Shown: positions 1 to 13,542 of the stretch, in pieces | How the letters are laid out: every line of letters starts with the position of its first letter | How positions within the stretch are numbered: the stretch's first letter is position 1 | Assembly: GCA_015057715.1 (NCBI GenBank) | Contig: SVDS01000039.1 | Location: forward strand, 1 to 36,994 | Reading direction: 5' to 3' | Origin: Paenibacillaceae bacterium | GTDB taxonomy: Bacteria; Bacillota; Clostridia; Lachnospirales; Lachnospiraceae | DNA length: 36,994 nucleotides | Made by a program: the position numbers and the translations under genes | The notes under the pieces: generated by a model | Seen by the model: the letters and a program-made list of their open reading frames with translations, nothing else | The model's database searches: none | Told to the model about the DNA's origin: nothing

Positions 1-2
1 TG

Positions 3-575
3 TGGCGGATTACCGATGACTTTTGGGACGACTGGACTTTGTTAAAGCAGATGTTTGAACGGTGTGAGCATTGGCAGTACCATGTGGGGCAGGGGAAGTA
101 TCCAGATTGTGATATGCTTCCTGTGGGTATGCTGGGGAAAGGCTTTGGAGAGGAACGTCTGACCCGGTTTACTAAAGATGAACAGATTACAATGATGTCA
201 CTCTGGTGCATATTCCGGTCTCCTTTGATGATTGGGGCGGAGCTTACCCGGTTGGATGAATGGACAAAAACTCTGCTTACAAACCCGGATGTATTAGCTC
301 TTCTTAGTGATGACTGCAAAACAATTCAGCTTGCCCGGGATGGGAAGCATTGTATCTGGCACAGCAGTAACCAAAAGAGCGGTTCTCATTATCTGGCTGT
401 CTTCAATTTATTAGAAGAAGAAAGAGAAGTTGTTATTTCAGCCGGTTTGCTGGAAAAAGAAGATTGGAACGGTATTTGTTTCACAGAACTCTGGACAGGT
501 GAATCGTTTACCAATGCATCAAAAGATCTGGTATTAAAGGTACCTGGACATGGGGCAAGGATCTGCCGTTATTAG
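3..575 (+). CDS. alpha-galactosidase, GH27 family, C-terminal part
   Basis: The reading frame is open from the left edge, so the gene starts outside the window. The first visible residues, WRITDDFWDDW, match the GH27 segment that carries the catalytic acid/base Asp (WRxT.D). The central part reads 'MMSLWCIFRSPLMIGAEL', the end of the (beta/alpha)8 barrel in this family. The rest is the usual beta-sandwich domain ending in GARICRY. The role would be hydrolysis of terminal alpha-galactosides such as melibiose and raffinose. There is no signal to judge localisation because the N-terminus is missing. A hairpin terminator follows directly, so this is the last gene of its transcript. The family call is fairly sure; substrate is inferred. 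Confidence 0.85.
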   Translation, partial: WRITDDFWDDWTLLKQMFERCEHWQYHVGQGKYPDCDMLPVGMLGKGFGEERLTRFTKDEQITMMSLWCIFRSPLMIGAELTRLDEWTKTLLTNPDVLALLSDDCKTIQLARDGKHCIWHSSNQKSGSHYLAVFNLLEEEREVVISAGLLEKEDWNGICFTELWTGESFTNASKDLVLKVPGHGARICRY

Positions 576-588
576 GAAACCTGATTTT

Positions 589-625
589 AAAAGACATGGG
601 AGTGTGAATAATCCCATGTCTTTTT
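589..625 (+). terminator. Rho-independent terminator after the alpha-galactosidase gene
   Basis: A 13-bp perfect stem AAAAGACATGGGA (589-601) pairs with 612-624 across a 10-nt loop and runs into T residues. It separates the galactosidase from the hydrogenase cluster. Confidence 0.85.
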
Positions 626-655
626 CATATATTTAAAAAAATAGGACAGGGAGGG

Positions 656-1121
656 ATGAGGAACGAAACTGATTGCTGTTGGCAGCCGGCTGATGAAGGA
701 TGACGGGATTGGACTTTTAGTCGCAGAAGAACTTGAAAAACGGTTCCTTCGCAGTGAACTTGAAATAATCTATGGTGAAACGGATAGTGAGGCGTGCTTT
801 TATTCTCTGAATCCCCATGATTTTATACTGATCTTAGATGCCATGTCATCTGGGGACCAGCCGGGTTCTGTTAAAATTTTTTCCATAGAGGAGATTATGG
901 AGCAGGTATCCAATCCCACTATGCAGCATGATATGAGTATTCTTGACATGATAAGACTGTACCGTTTTCCTGTAAGAGGATACTTAATTGGAATTGAGGC
1001 TGCCATAATTACACCAGGCTGTGAGCTAAGTACTGTGTTAAAAAGGCAGTTTCCCCATATTTGCAGAAAGACAGAAGATATTATAAGAGAAATTTTGTCA
1101 AAAGAAGGAAAAAAAAGATAA
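656..1121 (+). CDS. hydrogenase maturation protease (HyaD/HybD-like), apparent N-terminal frameshift
   Basis: This family removes the C-terminal tail of the [NiFe] large subunit after nickel insertion. The readable frame gives 'KLIAVGSRLMKDDGIGLL', then ILDAM (metal-binding Asp region), MQHDMS (metal-binding His region) and 'GYLIGIEAAIITPGCELS', in family order and at about normal length. No ATG, GTG or TTG opens this frame before 693, yet the conserved glycine loop lies upstream of 693. An ATG at 656 follows AGGACAGGGAGGG but is in another frame. Leaving out the C at 664 would give ATG AGG AAG AAA CTG, i.e. MRKKLIAVG. So this looks like a 1-nt insertion (mutation or sequence error), or else a non-AUG start or a shortened start at 693. 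The 14-residue tail on the large subunit downstream is the expected substrate. Confidence 0.8.
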
Positions 1122-1241
1122 TTATATCGGGCTACTTTTATAAATGCCCTGGAAAATGGGCTTAAAAACCAGGCTTGCACATATATTCTAACAGATTAGC
1201 CGGTAAAAAGGTTATTTAGAAATGGATAAGGAGGTTACATT

Positions 1242-1934
1242 ATGGATTTGGATTTACTCATGACGTATCTTGGCAGCAGTTTAAAGAGATTAAATGCTGA
1301 TGTGGAAAAGCTGCGCTCCAATCTATACAACAGCAATGATGTTCTGGATCATTTAAGCAGTGAATTAATTATGCTTCAGAATCATGTTTACTATTTCGGA
1401 CAATTAAGCCAGATGCAGGAGAATGGGCATGGGCTGGCTGCCAGTCAGATGAATGATCAGACAGGCGGCAGAGCGGGAGACCCCACCGGAGGAATTACTG
1501 GCCCTACCGGAGGAATCACTGGCCCCACCGGAGGAGTCACTGGCCCCACCGGAGGCATAACTGGCCCTACCGGAGGCATAACCGGCCCTACCGGAGGCGT
1601 AACTGGCCCTACCGGGGGTGTAAGCGGTCCAACCGGAGGCGCAACGGGCGGTCCCACAGGAGGAGCAACGGGCAGTCCAACCGGTACGCCACAGCCTCTG
1701 ACTTATTTTACACTGGAACAACTGGCACAATATGATGGGAAAAATGGTGCCCCGGCTTATGTCGCAGTGAATGGGGTGGTTTATAATGTTAGCAATAACC
1801 GGTTATGGGCAGGAGGCAATCATTTCTGGGGGCTTTCAGCAGGCAGAGATTTAAGTGCAGAGTTTGCTTCCTGTCACCCTGGCGCAATGGTACTGAGTGT
1901 ATTGCCTGTTGTAGGATATCTGGTTCAGGAATAG
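1242..1934 (+). CDS. cytochrome b5-like heme-binding protein with N-terminal helix and Gly-Pro-Thr heptad repeat
   Basis: The product is 230 residues in three parts. Residues 1-60 are helical, coiled-coil-like and without a signal peptide. Residues 81-149 are a glycine-rich repeat built on G-P-T-G-G-[IVA]-T. Residues 154-230 form a cytochrome b5-like domain of the small clostridial type: [24 protein letters not shown], then GGNHFWGL and SCHPGA, with His194 and His212 as likely axial heme ligands. AAGGAGG stands ahead of the ATG. The gene sits between the maturation protease and the small subunit, 16 nt before the latter, so it is probably co-transcribed. The likely role is electron transfer with the hydrogenase; this is inference from context. 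Domain family is fairly sure, electron partner unproven. Confidence 0.8.
1482..1688 (+). repeat. 21-nt tandem repeat encoding a GPTGGIT heptad
   Basis: About nine units of GGCCC[CT]ACCGGAGG..TNACT with third-position drift encode G-P-T-G-G-[IV]-T; the last units degrade to GGATGGPT and GGATGSPT. The period is seven residues, so it is not a regular collagen Gly-X-Y triplet. Copy number could vary by slippage. Confidence 0.9.
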
Positions 1935-1950
1935 GGGGGAGCAATTACCT

Positions 1951-2847
1951 ATGGAGAAAAAGCATGCATTTTGTCCTTTTCAAGAAATGAAATGGAAGGA
2001 AACCAGACAGCTGGTAACCAGAGCAATGGAAGAAATCGAAAATGAGAAACGTCCAAAACCCAACCTGGTCTGGCTGGAATTAAACGGGTGTACAGGAAAT
2101 ACCATTTCCATGCTGGATGGTCAGGATCCGGATTTCCAGTACCTTATGACGCAGATGACCAACTTTATCTACAGCAACAGCCTGATCGCATCCGAAGGGG
2201 ATCAGGCGATGGATCAGCTGTTTGATATCATTGGGGAGGAATACATATTAGCAGTAGAAGGTGCTGTTTCCAGAAAGGACAACGGACTCTATCACATCAT
2301 CGGACGCCATGAGGGAAGAGAAATAACAGGCCTTGAAGCAGCAATGCGGCTGGGAGAACGTGCTGCCCACATTATATCAGTTGGAGACTGCGCATCTTAC
2401 GGCGGAGTATCAGCAGCAAGACCTAATCCGACAGACTGTACCGGAATTTCAGATGTTGTTAATCGGGACGTAATTAAGCTTACCGGATGCCCCTGTCATC
2501 CAGACTGGCTGATGGGAACTGTGGCTTATTTAATTCTGTATGGAGAACCTCCCCTGGATGAAGTGGACCGGCCACTGATGTTTTATGGAATAACAATTCA
2601 TGACCGTTGTCCTAGAAGATCCTATTACGATTCAGGTATTTTTGCAACGAAGCTGGGTGAAGAAACTTGTATGTATATGCTGGGATGCCGGGGACCTGTA
2701 ACACAGACAGACTGTCCTATTCGTAAATGGAATGGGCATGTAAACTGGCCGGTGGGAGATGATACGCCCTGTATTGGCTGCGCTCAGTTTGGATTTCCAG
2801 ATGCCATGGAACCATTCATCACTTATGATACTATGAGGAAGGAGTAA
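1951..2847 (+). CDS. [NiFe] hydrogenase small subunit, cytoplasmic type
   Basis: This is the electron-transfer subunit (298 aa) holding three FeS clusters. Distal ligands are His217, Cys220, Cys240 and Cys246. Medial ligands are Cys255, Cys274 and Cys277 (PCIGC). Spacing matches classical group 1/2 small subunits. The proximal site shows Cys47, Cys147 (GDCASYGG) and Cys180 (TGCPCHPDW), but the usual CxxC reads CTGN, so the fourth ligand position is Asn50. There is no twin-arginine signal at the N-terminus and no C-terminal membrane anchor, so the enzyme should stay in the cytoplasm. GGGGGAG precedes the ATG. The next gene starts 2 nt after the stop, so the two are translated together. Family certain; subgroup not resolved. 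Confidence 0.93.
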   Translation: MEKKHAFCPFQEMKWKETRQLVTRAMEEIENEKRPKPNLVWLELNGCTGNTISMLDGQDPDFQYLMTQMTNFIYSNSLIASEGDQAMDQLFDIIGEEYILAVEGAVSRKDNGLYHIIGRHEGREITGLEAAMRLGERAAHIISVGDCASYGGVSAARPNPTDCTGISDVVNRDVIKLTGCPCHPDWLMGTVAYLILYGEPPLDEVDRPLMFYGITIHDRCPRRSYYDSGIFATKLGEETCMYMLGCRGPVTQTDCPIRKWNGHVNWPVGDDTPCIGCAQFGFPDAMEPFITYDTMRKE

Positions 2848-2848
2848 T

Positions 2849-4225
2849 ATGGCGGACACAATTATCATCAATCCAGTTACAAGAATCAACGGATTTATGG
2901 AAATAGCAGCTGAAGTAGGAAATCATGCCGTTACCAATGCACGTACGAAAGGCCTCATGTTCCGGGGCTTTGAAAAAATGCTGACAGGCAGAGCACCTTT
3001 GGATGCAATATATTTTACACAGCGGATCTGCGGAATCTGTTCAACTGCCCATTCCATGGCCTCCGCCCTTGCCCTTGAAGATGCTCTTAAGATTGTACCC
3101 TCAGAACAGGGAAGATATTTAAGGGATCTGCTTCATGCATGTGAATTTCTTCAGAATCATTTAAGGCATCTCTATCAGTATACGCTTCCAGATTATGTGA
3201 AGCTGCCGGAGGGCTACCCTCTTTTTAAGACAGATCACAACGATTATCGATTGCCTGACAAGGTAAATGAACGCATGGTAAATGATTATTTTGAATCATT
3301 GGAATATAGCAGGAATGCACATAAAATGCTGGCGATTTTGGGAGGGAAGGCGCCTCACAATCACGGAGTATTTGTAGGAGGAATCACTTCCCCTGTAACG
3401 GCTGATATGATAATAGCCATTAAATCCATACTATTTGGGATCGAAAAATTTATTACAGAAAAAATGCTGCCGGATGTATATGAAATAGCGGCTTATTATT
3501 CGGAGTATTATCATTTTGGCGGAGGTTATGGTAATCTTTTAACCTATGGCTGTTTTCAACATTATAAGGAGCTGGGGACTTTATATGTAGATCCATATAT
3601 TTATACAAATGAGCAGTATTCCCATTTTGATCCCGACCGCATTACCCAGTCAGATGAATATGCCTGGTTTAATATCAACAATGAGCCAGACAGGGAGAAA
3701 CCAGATGCCTATTCCTTTATCAGGGCTCCCAGATACAACGGTGTTCCTTTTGAGGTAGGTCCGCTGGCACGGCAATGGTTGTCAGGAGAGTACAGACATG
3801 GAATATCTGTTATGGACAGAACCATTGCACGGGTACTGGAAGCGAAAAAAATCACCCAGATCATGAATACTCTTTTGGAGAATCTGATTCCAGGTGTGCC
3901 CATGCAGCAGGAATATGAGATACCGGCGCAGGCTTATGGAAAGGGGCTCGTCGATACAACCAGAGGAGCACTCGGACACTGGCTGACAATTGAGGATCAG
4001 AAAATCCTGCTCTACCAGGTTATTACTCCATCTGCATGGAACTTATCTCCTCAGACTGGAGATAAAAAAGGGACCGGAGAACAGGCGCTTATGGGTGCGC
4101 CGGTGAAAGATGTAAATATGCCGGTAGAAATAGGAAGAATTATCAGATCCTTTGACCCTTGCGTTTCCTGTGCGACTCATATAATCACTCCCGGAAAAAC
4201 CACTAAAATTATACCGGTTGTCTGA
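2849..4225 (+). CDS. [NiFe] hydrogenase large (catalytic) subunit
   Basis: This 458-aa subunit holds the Ni-Fe(CN)2CO site. The N-terminal L1 motif is RICGICSTAH (Cys61, Cys64, His68). The C-terminal L2 motif is DPCVSCATH (Cys438, Cys441, His444). After His444 come 14 residues beginning IITPGK, the tail that a HyaD-type protease removes, which fits the protease gene upstream. The usual N-terminal TRIEGH is TRINGF here, so the glutamate implicated in proton transfer in well-studied enzymes is Asn14. AGGAAGGAG precedes the start, inside the end of the small-subunit gene. It is the last gene of the cluster; no hyp genes and no obvious membrane cytochrome follow. Function: H2 oxidation or evolution; the electron partner is unknown. 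Confidence 0.93.
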   Translation: MADTIIINPVTRINGFMEIAAEVGNHAVTNARTKGLMFRGFEKMLTGRAPLDAIYFTQRICGICSTAHSMASALALEDALKIVPSEQGRYLRDLLHACEFLQNHLRHLYQYTLPDYVKLPEGYPLFKTDHNDYRLPDKVNERMVNDYFESLEYSRNAHKMLAILGGKAPHNHGVFVGGITSPVTADMIIAIKSILFGIEKFITEKMLPDVYEIAAYYSEYYHFGGGYGNLLTYGCFQHYKELGTLYVDPYIYTNEQYSHFDPDRITQSDEYAWFNINNEPDREKPDAYSFIRAPRYNGVPFEVGPLARQWLSGEYRHGISVMDRTIARVLEAKKITQIMNTLLENLIPGVPMQQEYEIPAQAYGKGLVDTTRGALGHWLTIEDQKILLYQVITPSAWNLSPQTGDKKGTGEQALMGAPVKDVNMPVEIGRIIRSFDPCVSCATHIITPGKTTKIIPVV

Positions 4226-4229
4226 CAGC

Positions 4230-4397
4230 CTAAGTGCTTTCTGTTTTTATTGCGTCTAAAAGCGCTTTCTTTTGGTCATTTGAACAGTGAAGCAGGCGTA
4301 CTGACTGAATAAGCACCTGATTGTGAATGACAGCCGCCCTTCTGCCCAGTTCTTTTTTATCTTCTTCCGTTTGAGGATTATATACGATCATGTTCAT
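4230..4397 (-). CDS. small conserved-looking protein of 55 aa, unknown function
   Basis: On the minus strand an open frame begins MNMIVYNPQTEEDKKEL and ends DAIKTEST. It is charged, likely all-helical, without a membrane segment or signal. AAGG lies about 8 nt before the ATG at 4397-4395. It is convergent with the hydrogenase large subunit (4 nt between the stops) and divergent from the serine recombinase at 4499. I have an impression of similar short proteins near clostridial recombinases but cannot name a family. Given its place beside a skin-type recombinase it could be an accessory or directionality factor; that is speculation. The codon pattern and fit into an otherwise empty gap favour a real gene. 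Confidence 0.55.
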   Translation of the reverse strand: MNMIVYNPQTEEDKKELGRRAAVIHNQVLIQSVRLLHCSNDQKKALLDAIKTEST

Positions 4398-6172
4398 AGA
4401 GAATGCCTTGAAATTTAGGGTTACTATATTTGTATGTTATTCTGCGTGTCCCGTATGTTTGAGGATACACTTTCCATGATAAATCAAGGAGGATTTGTGT
4501 GATGGAAGACAGAAATCAGCCGTTTGCCATATATTCAAGAAAATCTAAATTTACTGGGAAAGGGGAAAGCATCGGCAATCAGATTGAGCTTTGCAGACAA
4601 TATATCTTAACCCATTACGGAGAATCCTTTGCCGACAGTGCCCTGATTTTTGAAGATGAGGGTTTTTCCGGAGGAAATTTAGAGCGCCCCCAGTTTCAGC
4701 AGATGATGAAAGAAGCAAAGAAAAAGAAGATTTCAGCAATTGTATGCTACCGCCTTGACCGGATCAGCCGTAATATCGGAGATTTTGCCAATCTGATCGG
4801 AGAATTGAACCGTCTGGAAATTTCATTTATTTCAATTAAAGAGCAGTTTGATACATCCTCTCCCATGGGAAGGGCCATGATGTATATTGCTTCTGTATTT
4901 TCCCAACTGGAAAGAGAAACCATTGCAGAACGGATCCGGGATAATATGCATGAACTTTCCAAAAGCGGAAGATGGCTTGGCGGAAATACCCCAACCGGGT
5001 ATCAGTCTGAACGGGTAACTTCCATAACCATTGACGGGAAGCAGAAAAAGGCATATAAACTGAAACGGATTCCCCAGGAGGCAAAGCTGGTAAAGCGGAT
5101 TTATGAAAAATTTCTGGAAACCGGTTCCCTGACACAGACAGAGACTTATCTCATACAGAATGGATACAAAACAAAGCAGGGACGTCTATTCAGCCGATTT
5201 GCAATTAAGGCTATACTTTCAAACCCGGTGTATATGATTGCAGATCAGGAAGCCTATGAGTATCTGAAAGAAAAAAAAGTAGAACTTTTTGCTGACCCCG
5301 CTGATTTTAAGGGGACCCATGGTATTATTGCATATAACCGGACTTTACAAAAGCAGGGAAAGGCCCATGAGATGAAAGACATGGAAGAATGGATTGTGGC
5401 AATTGGCAGACATGAGGGGTTGATTCCCGGAGCGGAGTGGGTCAGTGTCCAGCGTCAGCTGGAACGGAATAAATCAAAAAATTACCGCAGACCCAGAAGT
5501 AATGTGGCACTTCTTTCCGGCATTCTTGTATGCGGGAATTGCAATCACTATATGCGGCCCAAACTTTCCGGCAGATATAATGACCGGGGAGAACAGATCT
5601 ATTCCTACCTCTGTTCCATGAAAGAAAAAAGCCGCATGAAGTGCTGTGCAATAAAAAATGCCGATGGAAATCTGTTAGACAGACTGGTGATTGAGGAGCT
5701 TAAAAAAATTTCTGAAGACAAAAGAGAATTCACCAGGCAGTTGGAGGAAGGCAGGAAGCAGCTTATAGAAGAAAAGCAGGATTATGAACAGGATGTCAGC
5801 CGCCTTTTAGAGGAATTGTCTCAAACTGAAAAAGATATTGATGGTCTTGTGACGTCAATCAAGGTTGCCGGAGGAACGGCGGCATATGACTATATCGTCA
5901 GACAGATTGATGAACTGCATAAAAAGAAAGAACAGATCCTGTCCCAGATTGAAGTCTGTAAGGAAACTGCAATGGGAAAGGAATTGACTGCTCTGGAATT
6001 TGATCTGTTGAAAGAGACCCTGTCCAATTTTGAAAAGACTGTGGATTTTATGGATGTGGAACAGAAACGGGCTGCAATCCGGATTCTGGTAAAACGTGTT
6101 GTCTGGGATGGGGATACTGTCCATCTCTATCTGTATGGCTCTAAGGAGCCGCTTTGTGACTCTAGCAAATGA
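4398..6172. mobile_element. right end of a skin-like element interrupting sigK (left end outside window)
   Basis: The serine recombinase gene ends with the codons AAA TGA, and this TGA lies within AATGA at 6168-6172, exactly where sigK homology begins (Asn-Glu codons AAT GAG). The B. subtilis skin element recombines within a 5-bp repeat that I recall as AATGA in the same part of sigK. The matching N-terminal half of sigK is not found in the 6.1 kb to the left, so the element is either longer than that or has been rearranged. Only the part from the recombinase promoter region to the junction is marked here. Confidence 0.6.
4499..6172 (+). CDS. large serine recombinase, skin-element (SpoIVCA-like) type
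   Basis: The product is 557 aa. An N-terminal resolvase domain shows IYSRKS with catalytic Ser16, 'YRLDRISRNIGDF' and 'QLERETIAERI'. A recombinase domain (about 170-320) follows, then a zinc ribbon (CGNC, later CSM and CCA cysteines at about 345-385) and a long coiled coil (about 400-500). This is the complete layout of large serine integrases. AAGGAGG (4486-4492) supports the GTG at 4499 or the ATG three bases on. The stop codon lies inside the AATGA junction with sigK, so the gene sits at the very end of its element. Its expected task is excision in the mother cell to join sigK halves, as SpoIVCA does in B. subtilis; the assignment rests on domain and position. Confidence 0.9.
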   Translation: MMEDRNQPFAIYSRKSKFTGKGESIGNQIELCRQYILTHYGESFADSALIFEDEGFSGGNLERPQFQQMMKEAKKKKISAIVCYRLDRISRNIGDFANLIGELNRLEISFISIKEQFDTSSPMGRAMMYIASVFSQLERETIAERIRDNMHELSKSGRWLGGNTPTGYQSERVTSITIDGKQKKAYKLKRIPQEAKLVKRIYEKFLETGSLTQTETYLIQNGYKTKQGRLFSRFAIKAILSNPVYMIADQEAYEYLKEKKVELFADPADFKGTHGIIAYNRTLQKQGKAHEMKDMEEWIVAIGRHEGLIPGAEWVSVQRQLERNKSKNYRRPRSNVALLSGILVCGNCNHYMRPKLSGRYNDRGEQIYSYLCSMKEKSRMKCCAIKNADGNLLDRLVIEELKKISEDKREFTRQLEEGRKQLIEEKQDYEQDVSRLLEELSQTEKDIDGLVTSIKVAGGTAAYDYIVRQIDELHKKKEQILSQIEVCKETAMGKELTALEFDLLKETLSNFEKTVDFMDVEQKRAAIRILVKRVVWDGDTVHLYLYGSKEPLCDSSK

Positions 6173-6527
6173 GATCCTAATGCTCCTTCGTGCTAATAAA
6201 AAATATTCAAAAGAGGTGTCTTTATATGAACCCATCGGTGTAGACAAGGATGGAGAAACAGTAAGCCTTCTGGATGTGATCGAAATGGAGAATAAAGAGA
6301 CGTTAGAGACCATCATACTTAAACAGGACATTAAGGAACTTTATGAAGTTTTTGATTCCTGTCTGAAAGACAATGAAAAAACAATTATAGGAATGCGCTA
6401 TGGACTTCATGGCGGCAGGGAGTACACTCAGAGGGAGATCGCAGATCTCATGGGAATTTCCAGATCCTACTCTGCTGTCATAATAGGGATAAAAATGCCA
6501 GGTAAGGATTTGTCGAATAATAGATAA
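6168..6527 (+). CDS. sigK: RNA polymerase sigma-K factor, middle segment of a split gene
   Basis: From 6168 the frame reads NEILMLLRANKK, then EPIGVDKDGETVSLLDV, a region-3/4 linker, MRYGLHGG, 'TQREIADLMGISRSY'. These are the sigma-K regions 2.4 end to 4.2, with the family's strong conservation. The homology stops at codon TAC (6468-6470), in the middle of the helix-turn-helix; the next 18 residues to the stop at 6525-6527 (SAVIIGIKM...) are unrelated. No start codon or ribosome site belongs to it; ATG 6180 is internal. The missing end, YVSRLEKKALERLRTEL, is found in frame at 13474. The missing N-terminal half lies outside the window. As it stands the segment cannot make a working factor; it needs two DNA joins. 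Segments further upstream in the same frame are the recombinase read out of frame. Confidence 0.85.
   Translation, partial: NEILMLLRANKKYSKEVSLYEPIGVDKDGETVSLLDVIEMENKETLETIILKQDIKELYEVFDSCLKDNEKTIIGMRYGLHGGREYTQREIADLMGISRSYSAVIIGIKMPGKDLSNNR
6453..6484 (+). other. left attachment junction (attL) of the 7 kb element in sigK
   Basis: The core is TA at 6468-6469. The left side is sigK (GGAATTTCCAGATCC); the right side is element (CTCTGCTGTCATAAT). The element side is an imperfect inverted copy of the element side at the right junction (ATTCAGACAGCCGAA), 11 of 15 positions, with GCTGTC/GACAGC fully conserved. Confidence 0.8.
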
Positions 6528-6592
6528 TTCTTTGTAAATAATTGTAAAATTACGGATAATAAATAATATTGTCAATTAATTATAGAAATAAC

Positions 6593-6621
6593 TTGCATAT
6601 TAACTTTGTACATGGTACGAT
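6593..6621 (+). promoter_or_regulatory. candidate sigma-A-type promoter of the CE4 gene
   Basis: TTGCAT (6593-6598), 17-nt spacer, TACGAT (6616-6621), in an AT-rich stretch 54 nt before the start codon. Confidence 0.45.
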
Positions 6622-6674
6622 TACCCTGTAAATATTAACCAATTTAGCATTATCTAGTATAAGGGGGATTTTGT

Positions 6675-7346
6675 ATGAAGCGAAAAGCAAGATTTTTACT
6701 TACTTCCGTGATGATCCTGACAATTGGAGCACTAAAAATTACAAATGTATACGCCCAGGATCAAGCAGCAGATCTGACGGGTGTGAAAGCGGCTGCCTAT
6801 GCCGGAGATGTTTATCTTACCTTTGATGACGGTCCTAATAATGCAACGTCACAAACGCTGATCAACAATCTTAAGAATGCAGGATGTTACCGTGCAACCT
6901 TATTTGTATGGGGCAATCGGATTGCAGGGAACCAGTCAGCATGGAATGCCTATAAAAATTCAGGCTTCAGTCTCCAGAATCATAGCTGGACCCATTCCTA
7001 TATGAGTAACTGGAGCTACCAGCAGGTTTATAACGATTTCCAGCAATGTAACACGGCGATTCAAAATGCCGGCAAGCCAAGACCCACCAAGGTGAGACTG
7101 CCTTATCTCTACAGCAATAATACAATTACCCAGGCATGTTCTGCATTAAATCTTGCCATTGTTACCCCCACAGTTTACACCAGTGACTGGGAAGGTGCCA
7201 GTACAGAAACGATTATCAATTTCTGTAATAACTTAAGGGCGGGAGGAAATCCTCTCATGCATGACTCTTACCAGAATACTCTTAATGCCTTACCAACCAT
7301 AGTTAATAATTTAAAGAACCGTGGTTTTGGTTTTGCGCAGTATTAA
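6675..7346 (+). CDS. secreted polysaccharide deacetylase, carbohydrate esterase family 4 (NodB domain)
   Basis: The product has 223 aa. Residues 1-27 are a signal peptide (basic start, hydrophobic core, VYAQ cleavage site). The NodB domain shows all CE4 motifs: TFDDGPN (catalytic base and metal Asp), NHSWTH (two metal His), RLPY, SDWEG and LMHD. The enzyme would remove acetyl groups from N-acetylglucosamine polymers (chitin, peptidoglycan) or from xylan. The short single-domain form and the RLPY/SDWEG wording recall secreted clostridial xylan/chitin esterases. AAGGGGG precedes the ATG. It lies 205 nt inside the left end of the 7 kb sigK element and has its own terminator, so it is cargo. Substrate cannot be decided from sequence; a role in spore wall or cortex is only a thought. 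Confidence 0.88.
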   Translation: MKRKARFLLTSVMILTIGALKITNVYAQDQAADLTGVKAAAYAGDVYLTFDDGPNNATSQTLINNLKNAGCYRATLFVWGNRIAGNQSAWNAYKNSGFSLQNHSWTHSYMSNWSYQQVYNDFQQCNTAIQNAGKPRPTKVRLPYLYSNNTITQACSALNLAIVTPTVYTSDWEGASTETIINFCNNLRAGGNPLMHDSYQNTLNALPTIVNNLKNRGFGFAQY

Positions 7347-7370
7347 AACGGATTATTACATATTTATATG

Positions 7371-7397
7371 CGCTGCCCTGTTTTGGGCAGCGTTTTT
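7371..7397 (+). terminator. Rho-independent terminator after the CE4 gene
   Basis: CGCTGCCC (7371-7378) pairs with GGGCAGCG (7385-7392) over a 6-nt loop, followed by TTTTT. Its position rules out the ATG at 7368 as start of the next gene. Confidence 0.85.
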
Positions 7398-7424
7398 ACT
7401 CACAAAATGAAAAAGGGGAGAAAT

Positions 7425-9212
7425 ATGATAAAAAAGCTTTGGTTGCCGTTCCTGTTTGTATTGTCTCTTATTATTGCGGCTTTTTTGTTTTTCAGGGAAG
7501 AAAGTCCCAAATCCTGGGAACAGGCTAACGGACCTTATGGGGGATATATTCATTGTCTGGCAGTGGAAGATCAGAAGATTTTTGCAGGATCCCAGGGAAA
7601 TGGCGTGTTTTTTTCTTCCGATCAGGGGAAGAGCTGGAAGGCGGTTAATTCCGGTTTAACTAACAGTTATATTCATTCTCTGGTAATCAGTGGACCCAAT
7701 CTGTTTGCTGGGACAAGCAGTGGCATCTTTGTATCTCCTGCAGAAAAAATGGACTGGAGATCCATAGATCCCAAATGGGAGGATCTTATGGTATATTGCC
7801 TTGTTGCAGATGAGAGGTATCTCTATGCAGGAACCAGCAGCGGCATGCTCTACTCAGAAGATAATGGCCTAAAATGGAACAAAGCCAGCCAGGGACTGGC
7901 TTCAGGGGATGTAAAAGCAATTATGGTATATGGTGGGGAAATATTTGCAGGAACAGAGGAGAGAGGGATCTATCGCTCCCCGGATCATGGAGTCAGCTGG
8001 TTTGAGGTTAATACCGGCCTTACAACATTGCAGGTCAATGCACTTGCAGGAAGTGAATCTGCCATTTATGCAGGCACAGCCGGCGGCGGTGTATTTGTAT
8101 CCACAGACAGGGGGGATAGCTGGAAGCCTTTAAACAGCGGTCTTGGCAGTAAAAATGTCAATACCATTACGGTGAGTAAAGACAGTGTCCTTGCCGGTAC
8201 GGAAGTTGGAATATTTCTCTTAGAAGAAACAGGCTGGAAAGCTGTGAACAACGGGCTGTCCAATCCTTATGTATATTATCTGACTGCAGATGATTCCTGT
8301 TTTTACGCAGGGACTGACGGAGGCGGTGTGTTTGTTTCCGCTGATCATGGCAGGAGCTGGAATAAAATAAACCAGGGATTAATCAATACCCATATTAGTT
8401 CGTTTGCAGTGAAAGGAAGGGATGTTTTTGCCGGAACCAGTGGAGCCGGGATATTTATTTCCAGAGACGGCGGATTAAACTGGAGGGAGGCCGGTGCAGG
8501 ATTAACAAATCCCTTTGTATTTGCCCTGACCGTAAATGAATCTGGTATTTATGCGGGAACCAATGGCGGAGGGATTTATAAATCTGGGGATGATGGCAGT
8601 ACCTGGCAGGCAGTTAATTCGGGGCTGACCAATCCGTTTGTCTATTGTCTTGCAGTAAGTGGAAATACTCTGTATGCCGGAACCTTCGGAGGGGGGATAT
8701 TTTGTTCTGCTGACAACGGTTACAGTTGGAAAAGCATCAATAAGGATTTGAAAAATCACTACATCAGTTCCATCACTGTAAGTGGCGCAGATATATTTGC
8801 GGGAACATTTGGAGGAGGTGTGTTCCGGTCATCAAATCAGGGGGAAAACTGGGATGCAGTAAACAGTGGCTTAACCAACGGGCAGATATTTTCATTAACT
8901 GGCACTAATTCTTATCTGCTGGCATCCACACCTGGGGATGGAGTTTTTATGTCCACGGACAGAGGAGACAGCTGGAGCCCAGTCAATACCGGTTTGACCA
9001 GTGGAATGGTTAATTCCCTTGCTGTAAGAAAATCGGCAGTATTGGCCGGTACATATGGAGGCGGCATCTTTCAATCTTCCAATCAGGCACAGAGCTGGAA
9101 TGAATTTAATTCAGGACTGGAAACCATGGATGTTTATTCAATCTTAATCGGTGATCGGGAAGTTTTGGCGGGAACAAGCGGAAGAGGAGTCTGGAAGAAT
9201 CGTAGTAAATAA
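7425..9212 (+). CDS. membrane-anchored or secreted BNR-type beta-propeller protein (14 repeats)
   Basis: The product is 595 aa from the ATG preceded by AAGGGGAG. Residues 1-24 are a hydrophobic anchor or uncleaved signal (KKLWLPFLFVLSLIIAAF). The rest is 14 consecutive repeats of about 40 residues built on '..V.SLAV....LFAGT.GGGVF.S.D.G.SW..VN.GLTN'. The S.D.G.SW part is the Asp-box seen in sialidases, sortilin and Ycf48-like proteins. Fourteen blades would fit two seven-bladed propellers. No catalytic residues of sialidases were noticed, so a binding or scaffold role outside the membrane is more likely. It is flanked by two terminators and is monocistronic cargo of the 7 kb element. Function unknown. 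Confidence 0.85.
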   Translation: MIKKLWLPFLFVLSLIIAAFLFFREESPKSWEQANGPYGGYIHCLAVEDQKIFAGSQGNGVFFSSDQGKSWKAVNSGLTNSYIHSLVISGPNLFAGTSSGIFVSPAEKMDWRSIDPKWEDLMVYCLVADERYLYAGTSSGMLYSEDNGLKWNKASQGLASGDVKAIMVYGGEIFAGTEERGIYRSPDHGVSWFEVNTGLTTLQVNALAGSESAIYAGTAGGGVFVSTDRGDSWKPLNSGLGSKNVNTITVSKDSVLAGTEVGIFLLEETGWKAVNNGLSNPYVYYLTADDSCFYAGTDGGGVFVSADHGRSWNKINQGLINTHISSFAVKGRDVFAGTSGAGIFISRDGGLNWREAGAGLTNPFVFALTVNESGIYAGTNGGGIYKSGDDGSTWQAVNSGLTNPFVYCLAVSGNTLYAGTFGGGIFCSADNGYSWKSINKDLKNHYISSITVSGADIFAGTFGGGVFRSSNQGENWDAVNSGLTNGQIFSLTGTNSYLLASTPGDGVFMSTDRGDSWSPVNTGLTSGMVNSLAVRKSAVLAGTYGGGIFQSSNQAQSWNEFNSGLETMDVYSILIGDREVLAGTSGRGVWKNRSK

Positions 9213-9216
9213 GATT

Positions 9217-9262
9217 GAAAGCGGTTAAAGTGTCAGTAATTACTTTAACCGCTTTCTTATTT
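9217..9262 (+). terminator. Rho-independent terminator after the beta-propeller gene
   Basis: GAAAGCGGTTAAAGT (9217-9231) pairs perfectly with 9242-9256, 10-nt loop, then a T-rich tail. It also isolates the recombinase operon from upstream reading. Confidence 0.88.
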
Positions 9263-9300
9263 AAATCATAGTCAGCAGTTTTCAATCATTCCTTTTGGTA

Positions 9301-9329
9301 ATAGGACAATCAGCGATTTTCATAAAGTT
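9301..9329 (+). promoter_or_regulatory. possible mother-cell (sigma-E-like) promoter of the recombinase operon
   Basis: ATA at 9301-9303 and CATAAAGTT at 9321-9329 with a 17-nt spacer resemble the sigma-E pattern (ATA, CATACAnT) with two mismatches in the -10 element. No sigma-A box pair was found in this interval. Weak evidence. Confidence 0.3.
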
Positions 9330-9357
9330 ATGGAAAGAGCTGCAAAGAGGTGAGCGA

Positions 9358-9609
9358 ATGTTGACTGCAGATGAATTACGACAATTACAAAAAATAGATC
9401 CTGTTGGTACGGATCCGGACACATTAGTGGACATTTGTTCCGTAAAAATAAACACAGCACTGCCAAAAGAAGATCGGATCGATGACTTTATCAGACAGAT
9501 TAAAAACCCATATCTGTTTAAATGCGGGGACCTGGTGATCCAATCTGTATTTCCAGATACGGACGTTACTTTAAATGACCGACTGAAGCAATACTTAAAA
9601 AATGTATAA
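9358..9609 (+). CDS. small protein of 83 aa, co-transcribed with recombinases (DUF6870-like)
   Basis: AAGAGGTGA precedes the ATG at 9358; an earlier TTG at 9295 in the same frame lacks a ribosome site. The sequence begins MLTADELRQLQKIDP, contains 'DTLVDICSVKIN' and ends 'DTDVTLNDRLKQYLKNV'. It resembles a family of short proteins common in Lachnospiraceae mobile elements near serine recombinases (DUF6870 as I recall). The recombinase start overlaps its stop (ATAATG), so the two are translationally coupled. There is no enzyme motif, no membrane segment and no clear helix-turn-helix. A recombination directionality or accessory factor would fit the position, but that is inference. Confidence 0.65.
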   Translation: MLTADELRQLQKIDPVGTDPDTLVDICSVKINTALPKEDRIDDFIRQIKNPYLFKCGDLVIQSVFPDTDVTLNDRLKQYLKNV

Positions 9610-11216
9610 TGCGAAATGAGGTCCTTATGGGTTTATCAGATGACATTAAAAAATATAAAGCTGCGATTTATATCCGGGTATCAAAGGATGACGGAGATAA
9701 GATGGAGAGCAACAGTATTTCCAACCAAAGAACTTTAATCCGGTCTTACTTAGAGAATAAACCTGATATTGAGATTTGCTCCGAACGTGTCGATGATGGA
9801 TACAGCGGAGTATCCTTTGACAGACCAGCTGTCAAAGCAATGCTGAGTGATATAAGGGATGGATCTGTCAATTGTGTTATTGTTAAGGATTTGTCTCGTT
9901 TTGGTAGAAATTATATAGAAACAGGACGCTATATTGAGCAGCTTTTTCCATTTATGGGAGTGCGGTTTATCGCAATCAACGATGGGTTTGACAGCGCCTG
10001 CAAACAAAGTCAGGCGGATGATATGATTATTCCCTTTAAGAATCTGATCAATGATGCGTATAGCAGGGATATTTCTGTAAAGGTACGAAGCGGACAGAAT
10101 ATACGCCGCATACGGGGGGATTATATCGGCGCATTTCCGCTGTATGGCTATTTCCGGTCAGAGGAAAACAAATATAAGCTGGAGATTGATCAATATGCAG
10201 CAATGACAATCAGGGACATCTTTCGGTGGAAAATCCAGGGGATGAGCAATCAGGGAATTGCAAAACGTCTCAATACAATGGGAATTCTATCCCCATTGGA
10301 ATACAAACGGATGCTGGGCTGGGCTTACAGCACCTCTTTCCAGCTTCAGCCAGTAGCCAAATGGTCAGCTGCTTCTGTTATGCGTATTTTAAAGAATGAA
10401 ATTTATACAGGCACTATGATACAGGGGAAGGAAAGCAGCCCTAATTATAAAGTGAAAAAACGATTTAAGAAACCCCAGACAGAGTGGATTAAAGTGGCAG
10501 ATACCCACGAGGCAATTATTTCAAAAGACGATTTTTTCCTGGTAAAACGGCTGCTGGCCGCAGATACCAGAACTTCACCGGACAACGATGATCTCCATCT
10601 GTTTTCCGGACTGTTAAAGTGTGCAGGCTGCAATCATGGAATGGTAAGAAGACCTGTTAAATCAGGGGGAAAGACCTATGTTTATTACATGTGCAGAACA
10701 CAAAAAGAGGATAAAAACAAGTGCAGCGGGAAATGCAGGATTGATGAAATCCGACTGACCGCTTGTGTCCTTAAGATTCTGCAAAAGCAGATAGAAACTT
10801 CCTGTGACATGATTGAGATCATGGATTATATCAATTCATTACCTTTCAAACAGGTGGATGTGAAAAAGGCAGATTTACGGATTGAAAAAAAACAGGAGGA
10901 GTATTCCTGCTGTCAGAAACTTATGATTGAACTTTATGAGGATTATAAAAAGGGAATTGTAAACAGGGAAAATTACGTTGCATGGAAATTAAATTATGAA
11001 GAAAACTGCCATCAGATAGAAGAAGCTGTTCAGATATTAAAACAGGAAAGATGGAATCTGATAAATAATTATGAACTGCAAAACAGGTGGATTGAAGAAT
11101 TCAAAAGAAATAAAAATATCTCGGAGCTTTCAAGGCCGTTGTTAGCATCATTGATAGAGAGAATTGATGTGATTGATAAAAATAACATAAAAGTTTATTT
11201 TACGTTCAGGAGGTGA
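9609..11216 (+). CDS. large serine recombinase 1 of triplet (complete domain set)
   Basis: 535 aa. The resolvase domain shows AIYIRVSKDD with catalytic Ser25, 'VKDLSRFGRNYIETG' and 'PFMGVRFIAIND'. The recombinase domain covers about 165-325. A zinc ribbon follows at about 335-385 (CAGC, then C.T and KCSGKC cysteines). The C-terminal coiled coil and a final strand region ending VYFTFRR complete the usual TnpX/TndX-like layout. The ATG at 9609 overlaps the stop of the 83-aa gene; ATG 9627 is an alternative with GAGG ahead of it. The stop overlaps the next gene by 4 nt. This is the only member of the triplet with both zinc ribbon and coiled coil, so it is the best candidate for the main excision enzyme of the 7 kb sigK element. 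Confidence 0.9.
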   Translation: MRNEVLMGLSDDIKKYKAAIYIRVSKDDGDKMESNSISNQRTLIRSYLENKPDIEICSERVDDGYSGVSFDRPAVKAMLSDIRDGSVNCVIVKDLSRFGRNYIETGRYIEQLFPFMGVRFIAINDGFDSACKQSQADDMIIPFKNLINDAYSRDISVKVRSGQNIRRIRGDYIGAFPLYGYFRSEENKYKLEIDQYAAMTIRDIFRWKIQGMSNQGIAKRLNTMGILSPLEYKRMLGWAYSTSFQLQPVAKWSAASVMRILKNEIYTGTMIQGKESSPNYKVKKRFKKPQTEWIKVADTHEAIISKDDFFLVKRLLAADTRTSPDNDDLHLFSGLLKCAGCNHGMVRRPVKSGGKTYVYYMCRTQKEDKNKCSGKCRIDEIRLTACVLKILQKQIETSCDMIEIMDYINSLPFKQVDVKKADLRIEKKQEEYSCCQKLMIELYEDYKKGIVNRENYVAWKLNYEENCHQIEEAVQILKQERWNLINNYELQNRWIEEFKRNKNISELSRPLLASLIERIDVIDKNNIKVYFTFRR

Positions 11217-12193
11217 TTTCACTGGCAAGACCAAATAGAAACAATCGTGATTTAATGGATTCTCAATCTTTACGTACAACCGTTCTGTCAACGTATCAGA
11301 CCGCCATTTATGCCAGGCTTTCCATTGAAGACAATGGCTGCGGCAGTGATTCTATTGAAAGCCAGATTGAATTGTTGAAAAAGTACATAGAAGAGAAACA
11401 GGATCTGACCCTGAAGCTTGTCTTTTATGATAATGGCATGACAGGTACTAATTTTGACAGACCAGGTTTTATGGCCATGGTTGAAGAGATGAAGAAGGGG
11501 AATATTAATTGCATTGCAGTCAAAGACCTTTCCCGTTTTGGAAGAAACTACGTGGAAGCGGGCTATTATTTAGAAAGAATATTTCCATACCTGGGCGTAC
11601 GGTTTATCTCAGTCAATGATAATTATGACAGTATCTCTGTTACATCCAATGAAGAACTGGCATTTTCCCTGAAAAATGTATGTCACCATATTTATGCAAA
11701 GGATATTTCCCGTAAAATATGTACTGTATTTGAAGCAAAAAAGAAACAGGGATTATTTCTGGGCAGATTTGCGCCTTATGGATACAAAAAATGTGAGAAC
11801 AACAAATACAAACTGGAGATTGAAGAAGAGACAGCCAAAGTTGTACAAAATATTTTCAAACTGCGTCTTAATGGGATGAGTGCTTCTGGGATCGCCCGAT
11901 TCTTAAATAGCCAGGGGATTCCTTCCCAGAGTAAACGGTTGTTTGAAAACGGTATGATTAAGGGCACAAAGGGAGAAGCCACATCAAGCTGGTCCAGCGG
12001 TTCCGTGCTTGGTATTTTGAAAAATCCTGTTTACTGCGGTTGTGTCGTGGAGCGAAAAAGCGATTCTGCTTATTATAAAGGAGGACATAAGGCTGAAATT
12101 CCAAGGTCAGAATGGAGGTACATTGAACACACACACGAAGCAATTATAGATAAGGAAACCTTTGAACAGGTAAACAAGGAGTTTATACAGTGA
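11213..12193 (+). CDS. serine recombinase 2 of triplet (no zinc ribbon or coiled coil)
   Basis: 326 aa. The resolvase domain shows AIYARLSIED with catalytic Ser37, 'VKDLSRFGRNYVEAG' and 'PYLGVRFISVND'. The recombinase domain runs to the end (PRSEWRYIEHTHEAII..). The protein stops where the zinc ribbon begins in its neighbour, so the DNA-binding tail is absent, although all catalytic residues are present. The frame opens at GTG 11213, but that codon lies inside a perfect ribosome site AGGAGGTGAT (11208-11217). The true start may be CTG at 11222 (8 nt behind AGGAGG) or ATG at 11255. It overlaps both neighbours by 4 nt. It may act as a hetero-oligomer partner; this is inferred from the conserved active site. 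Confidence 0.85.
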   Translation: MISLARPNRNNRDLMDSQSLRTTVLSTYQTAIYARLSIEDNGCGSDSIESQIELLKKYIEEKQDLTLKLVFYDNGMTGTNFDRPGFMAMVEEMKKGNINCIAVKDLSRFGRNYVEAGYYLERIFPYLGVRFISVNDNYDSISVTSNEELAFSLKNVCHHIYAKDISRKICTVFEAKKKQGLFLGRFAPYGYKKCENNKYKLEIEEETAKVVQNIFKLRLNGMSASGIARFLNSQGIPSQSKRLFENGMIKGTKGEATSSWSSGSVLGILKNPVYCGCVVERKSDSAYYKGGHKAEIPRSEWRYIEHTHEAIIDKETFEQVNKEFIQ

Positions 12194-13449
12194 GCGGGCA
12201 ATACAGAATAGCTCTATATCTGCGCGTATCAGATGAGGATGAAAATCCGGATCATGAGTTGGAGAGTGAAAGCATTTCAAGCCAGCGTCTTCTGCTTAAT
12301 GATTTTGTTAACGGACATCGGGAGCTTTCCTGTGGCAAAACCATAGAATTTACGGATGATGGTTTCAGCGGTACGAATTTTGAACGGCCGGGAGTGAAAA
12401 AATTACTGGATATGGCAAAGGCACACCAGATCGATTGTATTGTGGTTAAGGATTTTTCCAGATTCGGACGGAATTATCTTGAAGTAGGAAATTACCTAGA
12501 ACAGATCTTTCCTTTTCTTGGCATCCGTTTTTTATCAGTTAATGATCATTTTGACAGCTTTGAGAATATTGGAGCAGCTGGTGCCATCGAGGTAGGCTTT
12601 AAGAATATCATTCACGAGGCATATAGTAAGGATCTTTCGGAAAAGATAAAAAGTGTTCGCCGGATGAAAGCAGAACAGGGGAAGTTTGTAACAGCTTTTG
12701 CTCCCTATGGATATAAAAAGGCAGAAACCAGCAAAAACCAGCTGATTATTGATGAAGAATGTGCCGTTATTGTCAGACGTATTTTTAGTTTATTCTTAGG
12801 CGGAACAGGAAAGACTGCCATTGCCTGTTTATTAAACAAGGAAGGAATCCCATCTCCGTATATGGTGCGCAGACAGAGAAATGAAAAATTTCATTCCATT
12901 GTGGGTAAGAAAAAAACTTACTGGACTGCAGGAACGGTTTCCAGAATATTATCTGACCAGAGATATACTGGCGATGCAATCTACGGAAAGGTCAGGCCGG
13001 TAACCATTGGAAGCAAAAAAGACATTTCAGTTCCGGAAGAAGACTGGATCGTTGTACCAGATGCACATCCGTTGATTGTTAGACGGGAGATATTTGAAGC
13101 TGTAAGGTCAGGTAAAAAGAAGTACATCTCCCATCAAATCAAAAATAAAACCAGTTATATTTCAGAAAAGGGTATTCTAACCTGCTTAAAATTCCTGGCA
13201 TCATTGGTGGATAATGTTTCAGATACAAAAGAGAATGATAAATTTAAATTATATAGACGGTTTAAAGCGGGAATTATAACAGAAGATGTTTTTGTAAGAA
13301 AAATTGCAGATCTGGACACAGAGAATTCCGGCTTGCAATTTATAGCTTTGTCTCAGGAAATGACAGAAGAATTTATAAACTCTTTCCATGGAACAGCAGA
13401 TGGGAGAGTTGTCGTAACATGGAACTTTAGAGATCCTTATGGGTTGTAA
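12190..13449 (+). CDS. serine recombinase 3 of triplet (zinc ribbon missing)
   Basis: 419 aa from GTG, with AAGGAG 8 nt upstream. The resolvase domain shows ALYLRVSDED with catalytic Ser14, 'VKDFSRFGRNYLEVG' and 'PFLGIRFLSVND'. The recombinase domain is at about 160-310. After 'SGKKKYISHQIKNK' there is no CxxC pair; the sequence passes to a short helical part (LYRRFKAGIITEDVFVRKI) and a terminal strand (VVVTWNFRDPYGL) like that at the end of full-length relatives. So the zinc ribbon and most of the coiled coil have been lost. The gene ends 24 nt before the right junction with sigK. Triplets of adjacent serine integrases are, as I recall, known from some streptococcal integrative elements. Confidence 0.87.
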   Translation: MSGQYRIALYLRVSDEDENPDHELESESISSQRLLLNDFVNGHRELSCGKTIEFTDDGFSGTNFERPGVKKLLDMAKAHQIDCIVVKDFSRFGRNYLEVGNYLEQIFPFLGIRFLSVNDHFDSFENIGAAGAIEVGFKNIIHEAYSKDLSEKIKSVRRMKAEQGKFVTAFAPYGYKKAETSKNQLIIDEECAVIVRRIFSLFLGGTGKTAIACLLNKEGIPSPYMVRRQRNEKFHSIVGKKKTYWTAGTVSRILSDQRYTGDAIYGKVRPVTIGSKKDISVPEEDWIVVPDAHPLIVRREIFEAVRSGKKKYISHQIKNKTSYISEKGILTCLKFLASLVDNVSDTKENDKFKLYRRFKAGIITEDVFVRKIADLDTENSGLQFIALSQEMTEEFINSFHGTADGRVVVTWNFRDPYGL

Positions 13450-13458
13450 TTTGCCCCT

Positions 13459-13490
13459 ATTCAGACAGCCGAATATGTATCAAGGCTGGA
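13459..13490 (+). other. right attachment junction (attR) of the 7 kb element in sigK
   Basis: The core is TA at 13474-13475. The left side is element (ATTCAGACAGCCGAA); the right side is sigK (TGTATCAAGGCTGG). TA is the only sequence shared by both junctions at this point, and it keeps sigK in frame. Confidence 0.8.
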
Positions 13491-13542
13491 AAAAAAGGCT
13501 CTGGAAAGGCTGAGGACAGAATTAAAAAGAAATGGGATATAA
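13474..13542 (+). CDS. sigK: sigma-K factor, C-terminal segment of a split gene
   Basis: From the TAT codon at 13474 the frame reads YVSRLEKKALERLRTEL and five more residues to TAA (13540-13542). This is the recognition-helix end of sigma region 4.2 (SYVSRIEKKAL in sigma-K relatives). It has no start codon or ribosome site and begins right at the end of the 7 kb element. It continues the middle segment that breaks off at 6469. The gene tail is intact, without stops or frameshifts, which argues for a gene that is still rejoined and under selection. The lepB promoter begins 3 nt after the stop. Confidence 0.82.
   Translation, partial: YVSRLEKKALERLRTELKRNGI

Follow-up and report, generated by a model that had tools for sequence, protein, structure and literature searches.

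Two serine recombinase-borne elements split the sigK gene of a Lacrimispora-group bacterium into three pieces

The activation of sigma-K is a classic developmental switch operated by DNA excision, and Lacrimispora species form spores. The present analysis concerns a stretch of 36,994 nucleotides (hereafter the window), which is the entire contig C13 (SVDS01000039.1) of a Lacrimispora-group draft genome (5.4 Mb, 283 contigs) and in which sigK is doubly interrupted by two separate elements, called here element 1 and element 2. The closest described systems are the skin and gin elements, other sigK insertions and the heterocyst interruption elements. The skin elements of Bacillus subtilis and Clostridioides difficile (skinCd; PMC5025042) likewise lie in sigK and carry an adjacent large serine recombinase and a short core, which in B. 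subtilis comprises five nucleotides (PMC13141910). C. difficile also shares with the present host a sigma-K without a pro-sequence and, in skinCd, a small candidate recombination directionality factor with a sigma-E-like promoter (PMC5025042). Unlike the skin elements in that account, two elements occupy a single sigK here, with the second site in region 4.2; genes for phage structural proteins were not recognised, and element 2 encodes three recombinases.

The gin element of Bacillus cereus, which is excised during sporulation by one recombinase and a small factor, resembles element 2 in its lack of phage genes, its three serine recombinases and its position within a mother-cell regulator gene (PMC5595907). 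However, gin splits gerE and not sigK, its girC gene is distant from girAB and its GirX factor has 42 residues, whereas the recombinase genes R1, R2 and R3 of element 2 stand in tandem behind a gene encoding a DUF6870 protein (PMC5595907). Excisable insertions at varied positions of sigK (195 and 423) are reported from the B. cereus group, in that account as a single insertion per gene (PMC10745906). Several elements within one gene, excised in a specialised cell type, are found among the heterocyst interruption elements, where 10 of 87 interrupted genes carry multiple elements and nifD of Rivularia carries four, but these are cyanobacterial genes, mostly of heterocyst function, and not an endospore sigma factor (PMC4874684). 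Single insertions at several sigK sites, a three-recombinase gerE element and multi-element cyanobacterial genes were already known; a literature search, with most subscription papers outside its coverage, found no description of an endospore gene that carries two such elements.

The first piece of sigK, identified by profile search and base-level reading of the joint, lies at C267:45371-45639 and ends at AATGA. The middle piece (window 6168-6469, forward strand) runs from AATGA, which overlaps the stop of a recombinase gene (4499-6172), to a TA, and its last residues are GISRSY. The last piece (13474-13542, forward strand) reads YVSRLEKKALERLRTELKRNGI and then reaches a stop. The TA is duplicated at 6468-6469 and 13474-13475, with a spacing of 7,006 bp. 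The original prediction, made from the window, had proposed both segments, the abutting recombinase gene and the common TA, and had placed the N-terminal half elsewhere, ending at AATGA; all these points hold, the N-terminal half being the piece on C267. This contig and the window share a 77-bp overlap when aligned to the relative G014 and are therefore neighbours; in addition, the alpha-galactosidase gene at the end of C267 carries on at the window start. The joined protein scores 294.2 bits against the SigK profile PRK05803 (cut-off 252) and 292.4 bits against TIGR02846, just below its cut-off of 298.65, and its match begins at profile position 24, i.e. without a pro-sequence. A TIGR02846 search of the same genome found no further sigK, although absence from a draft is not absolute. 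The best full-length match of that search, on C136, is SigE (391.6 bits, cut-off 339) and was rejected as an intact sigK. Because of the reading frame, two removals are required to make sigma-K, as had been foreseen.

Element 2 is a 7,006-bp insertion at TA within the recognition helix of sigK region 4.2. A precise empty site exists at base resolution in G014, which aligns through the position with a 2-bp overlap exactly at TA; in splitting the sigK frame and having such an empty site, element 2 resembles a skin-type element. Among 25 genomes of the genus, site 2 is uncut in 18, in which the match continues to the profile end, and 16 of these were read base by base as SRSYVSR. The alignment to G014 and these uncut genomes speak against a chance arrangement; a natural end of sigK at SRSY, which would have undermined the original prediction, is rejected on this basis. 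Both cuts are assembled in four genomes, namely this one (G000, on two contigs), Lacrimispora algidixylanolytica SPL73 (G002), Clostridium sp. 12(A) (G022) and G023, the last three on one contig each. Both are inferred from partial contigs in two others, [Clostridium] aerotolerans DSM 5434 (L. aerotolerans, G001) and the metagenome-assembled genome SIG287 (G015), where the right joint and all or most of element 2 are present; the remaining genome gives no site 2 data. A pattern search recovered the left sigK joint in four of these six genomes, not in G001 or G015.

Two genomes outside the genus set, reached through a separate search, carry a cut at site 2 only. In L101, sigK is whole at site 1, but a 7.5-kb element encoding a chemoreceptor and three full-length recombinases interrupts it at site 2; in L174, site 2 is cut without element 1 and about 22.6 kb separate the sigK pieces. 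Site 2 is therefore by itself a target that is hit repeatedly. In a family-wide search of 397 genomes sampled from a larger group, 254 gave a match and, among the matches listed, only G000 and G022 end at query position 102; G087 ends at 105. The frame was readable in 17 of 30 family-wide loci (13 had no readable frame), giving SRSYVSR in 15 and another reading in two, G000 and G022. No sigK match at E 0.01 was found in the IMG/VR loci of R1 relatives (best 80 of 180). The sequence of the window, the empty sites of relatives and the recurrence in other genomes agree that two recombinase-borne elements interrupt sigK.

Element 1 measures about 7.85 kb, with its left 1.76 kb on C267 and its right part at window positions 1-6172, and encodes one large serine recombinase. 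It cuts sigK at AATGA, after about residue 89, and is skin-type: it splits the sigK frame, which is whole again once the element is taken out at a short core, and the recombinase lies beside the gene. The letters AATGA are also those of the B. subtilis skin core. Site 1, where the first piece of sigK ends, is interrupted in 24 of the 25 genus genomes; the remaining one, 67% complete, gave no sigK match. The joint was read in all 24 (21 genomes, then G007, G015 and G016), and the cut falls in the same place. In 9 of the 21 genomes, the left-hand AATGA has G or C as its fifth base, leaving AATG as the common core, followed by A in the others. Over the nine loci listed, element 1 ranges from 2.66 to 11.5 kb. 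The minimal forms of 2.66-2.68 kb, in G011 and G012, retain three genes: one with a start similar to that of the collagen-like/cytochrome b5 gene, a small divergent one for 56-60 residues and that of the recombinase.

In the window, the recombinase gene (4499-6172, forward strand; PF00239, PF07508, PF13408; PHROG 95 integrase) has its stop inside the AATGA core, and upstream of it stands a divergent open reading frame (ORF) of 55 codons (4230-4397, reverse strand). This small ORF is conserved in 20 of 20 genus loci, both minimal elements included, with 53-62 residues from the conserved start. Its product matched no NCBIfam or PHROGs family and is a candidate directionality factor of element 1. 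The other genes of element 1, assigned from the ORF list and Pfam, encode part of a GH27 alpha-galactosidase (39-575), the hydrogenase maturation protease HycI (693-1121), a collagen-like/cytochrome b5 protein (1242-1934) and the small (1951-2847) and large (2849-4225) subunits of a NiFe hydrogenase. The hydrogenase, its maturation protease and the collagen-like cytochrome b5 protein are carried here, and the cargo differs among species. In locus L065 (G024), a single-contig assembly, the recombinase has only 469 residues owing to an early stop, by error or decay.

The ends of element 2 form a dyad centred on TA. From the joint reading and the alignment to G014, the core TA of the left attachment site (attL) lies at 6468-6469 and that of the right one (attR) at 13474-13475. 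The left arm, CTCTGCTGTCATAATAGGGATAAA (6470-6493), is complementary about TA to the right arm (13450-13473) at 18 of 24 positions, which none of 5,000 shuffles reproduced; over five alleles, two of them almost identical (G001 and G022), 16-18 of 24 positions pair, against 0 of 5,000 one-arm shuffles each. All genes of the element are on the forward strand. The cargo consists of a polysaccharide deacetylase (6675-7346; PF01522) and a BNR/sortilin-type beta-propeller protein (7368-9212; Pfam). These are followed by a candidate accessory factor, the DUF6870 protein of 83 residues (9358-9609; PF21757, matched on a longer frame of 104 residues), whose gene overlaps that of R1. From Pfam and comparison with relatives, R1 (9609-11216) is a full-length serine recombinase. 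R2 (11213-12193) is truncated in frame to 326 residues, and R3 (12190-13449) is shortened to 419, against 533-557 and 511-526, respectively, in G001, G002, G022 and G023. The same gene order, deacetylase, propeller, DUF6870, R1, R2, R3, was found in the four complete copies compared, and the in-frame shortening of R2 and R3 is shared by G000 and G015. The losses (window 11213-13449) fall downstream of the recombinase domain, in the zinc-ribbon and coiled-coil region, and constraint persists. A PHROGs scan of the six products found integrase, invertase, transposase and unknown-function families only, and no phage structural gene was recognised. Of 160 loci that contain R1 relatives, 150 also contain a relative of DUF6870 (77 of the 80 from genomes and 73 of the 80 viral ones).

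Both elements carry promoter-like sequences of similar architecture. Upstream of the small ORF of element 1 lies ATA-N17-CATA with GGACA in the spacer (4433-4456, reverse strand), an arrangement present in 20 of 20 genomes, while the loose ATA-CATA pattern occurs in 6.7% of 8,800 control windows. Before DUF6870-R1 in element 2 lies ATAGGACAATCAGCGATTTTCATA (9301-9324, forward strand), and the ATA-GGACA-CATA combination precedes these genes in all seven elements examined within sigK, that of G000 and those of six loci, in 15 of 71 further genome loci and in 4 of 73 viral loci; it was met in 0.57% of 20,000 random stretches of the window. GGACA is the SpoIIID core, and its occurrences in the spacers are putative SpoIIID sites. 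For sigma-E, a C. difficile promoter is reported as ATA-N16-CATATATA (PMC3789822). The shared motif suggests mother-cell control of both elements by sigma-E and SpoIIID.

The association of the motif with sporulation genes extends beyond sigK, since 8 of the 15 other motif-bearing genome loci adjoin a truncated cwlD, a sporulation gene. Of 80 genome loci, 3 without DUF6870 were dropped; among the remaining 77, the motif is present at 14 of 14 loci lying at sigK or cwlD. A scripted count that included L145 gave 14 of 15 sporulation-gene targets against 7 of the 62 remaining loci (Fisher, 1.9e-9); L145, whose 31% match to an amidase does not lie at the element end, is probably not cwlD. In L150, L153, L154, L156, L157, L160, L161 and L164, cwlD, whose identity was tested on L161 by TIGR02883, is cut at the same truncation point downstream of R3 and in opposite orientation, and all eight loci bear the ATAGGACAA...CATA motif. 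The same promoter-like motif also accompanies a related recombinase locus, L121, of an Epulopiscium metagenome-assembled genome; this bacterium forms its offspring with the help of sporulation regulators.

Between two doubly split species, G002 and G022, sigK is under strong purifying selection, with 46 synonymous and 7 nonsynonymous changes and a ratio of nonsynonymous to synonymous substitution rates (dN/dS) of 0.033; for G009 and G017, both uncut at site 2, the ratio is 0.019. Element genes show dN/dS of 0.03-0.28 in pairs with unsaturated dS, and between G000 and G015 the values are 0.16 for R2 and 0.24 for R3. The sigK of G000 differs from that of G014 by nine changes (eight synonymous, one not) and from that of G013 by 14, all synonymous, too few for a selection test on this strain alone. 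Between G001 and G022, dS is 0.14-0.21 for host genes and 0.12-0.32 for the element; between G002 and G022, it is 1.8-2.8 for host genes, 0.43 for sigK and 1.2-1.3 for the deacetylase and propeller genes. In the clade of G001, G002, G022 and G023, element and host divergence are therefore of the same order, which fits long residence. The near relatives of G000 and G015 lack element 2. As R1 has reached saturation of dS between the two clades of the element, the data do not discriminate between vertical inheritance followed by losses and a horizontal gain in the lineage of G000.

Several assemblies break exactly at the cores. In L. aerotolerans (G001), element 2 is a contig running exactly from TA to TA, and the contig of the right flank begins 95 bp inside the element. 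A graph assembler breaks in this manner when chromosomal and circle joints are both in the reads. A second assembled copy as the cause of these contig ends was rejected: in this assembly the right end occurs only in C31 and C5 and the left end only in C31. The element 1 of G007 is likewise a contig running exactly from AATGA to AATGA, with flanking contigs that end and start at AATGA, and G016 has one contig end at AATGA with a 99-bp overlap. Circles present alongside the integrated DNA would be expected to produce such breaks.

The best explanation of the whole, to which we give a probability of about 0.8, is a three-piece sigK whose two recombination systems would excise in the mother cell and so rebuild the frame. 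Two independent site-specific excisions would be the simplest mechanism. In the mother cell, sigma-E and SpoIIID would turn on both the DUF6870-R1-R2-R3 operon of element 2 and, in element 1, the small putative directionality factor. Each recombination system would then act on its own attL and attR, freeing two circles; the double excision would join one open sigK frame, and the spore chromosome would retain both elements. The original prediction had also envisaged that the excisions might be ordered, which finds no support, as the promoter-like architecture common to both elements rather suggests simultaneous action. Several observations weigh against the proposed double excision or its control. 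R2 and R3 are truncated here, and this copy of element 2 may therefore not excise. The middle sigK piece is absent from the assemblies of G001 and G015; that of G001 holds neither the joint of the empty site (attB) nor the left joint, and a tandem copy of element 2 could give the same break. The sigma-E and SpoIIID assignments are made by resemblance only, a stricter -10 form upstream of the small ORF was met in 13 of 20 genomes, this one not included, and the region upstream of sigK had no ATA-CATA pattern match in any of 21 loci. Finally, the 77 loci of the motif count are non-independent, the 14 falling in two clades, and the remaining part of cwlD was found in one of the eight loci (L161, 5975-6079, across the element).

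The truncation of R2 and R3 in G000 and G015 would also be expected if element 2 were a plain mobile element that struck sigK and ended sporulation, leaving the pieces as relics, and the few changes relative to G014 and G013 cannot speak for selection in this strain. We consider this improbable, since G002 and G022 share the cut and yet diverged under a sigK dN/dS of 0.033, the element genes are constrained wherever dS is unsaturated and the contig ends of L. aerotolerans are precise at the attachment core. An artefactual or chimeric assembly might be suspected from a draft of 283 contigs with the first piece on a separate one; its likelihood is negligible and it is rejected for the relatives, as G002, G022 and G023 each have the same double split within one contig (0.23, 3.5 and 4.5 Mb). 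A very improbable variant supposes that element 1 leaves, element 2 stays and a truncated sigma-K ending in SRSYSAVIIGIK... is itself the working product. The frame does continue into the end of the element, where it gives a tail of SAVIIGIK or PSVIIGIK in L068, L071, L101 and L296, but this tail coincides with the attachment-site arm, where the DNA is constrained anyway, and most of the helix by which the -35 box is read would be missing from the product.

Another question is whether the host gains from the arrangement. Both elements may merely use sigK as a safe harbour, excising on time to spare the host without any gain or checkpoint, and we place this at slightly short of an even chance. 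It agrees with cargo that varies between elements, with a site 2 uncut in 18 of 25 genus genomes and with relatives of element 2 sitting at cwlD. Retention of element 1 at one site in 24 of 25 genomes would be unusual for a neutral guest; for element 2, no evidence favours either side, and although a checkpoint may be of benefit, a harmless element leaving in time would look identical. Beyond the double excision itself, a broader proposal, which we regard as doubtful, is that elements with DUF6870 and three serine recombinases form a family with a mother-cell promoter code (ATAGGACAA...CATA), specialised in sporulation genes (sigK region 4.2 and cwlD). Stacked on an old skin element, such an insertion would make a DNA-level AND gate, whose half-open state would give a truncated sigma-K; this product might hold core polymerase and yet be unable to read the -35 box.

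A gene that needs two unrelated excisions offers a test of whether such elements act as regulators or simply as guests that behave well, as the two locks can be removed singly. The relatives with and without element 2 provide a natural comparison, and the promoter motif is a route to further sporulation genes split by elements of this kind.

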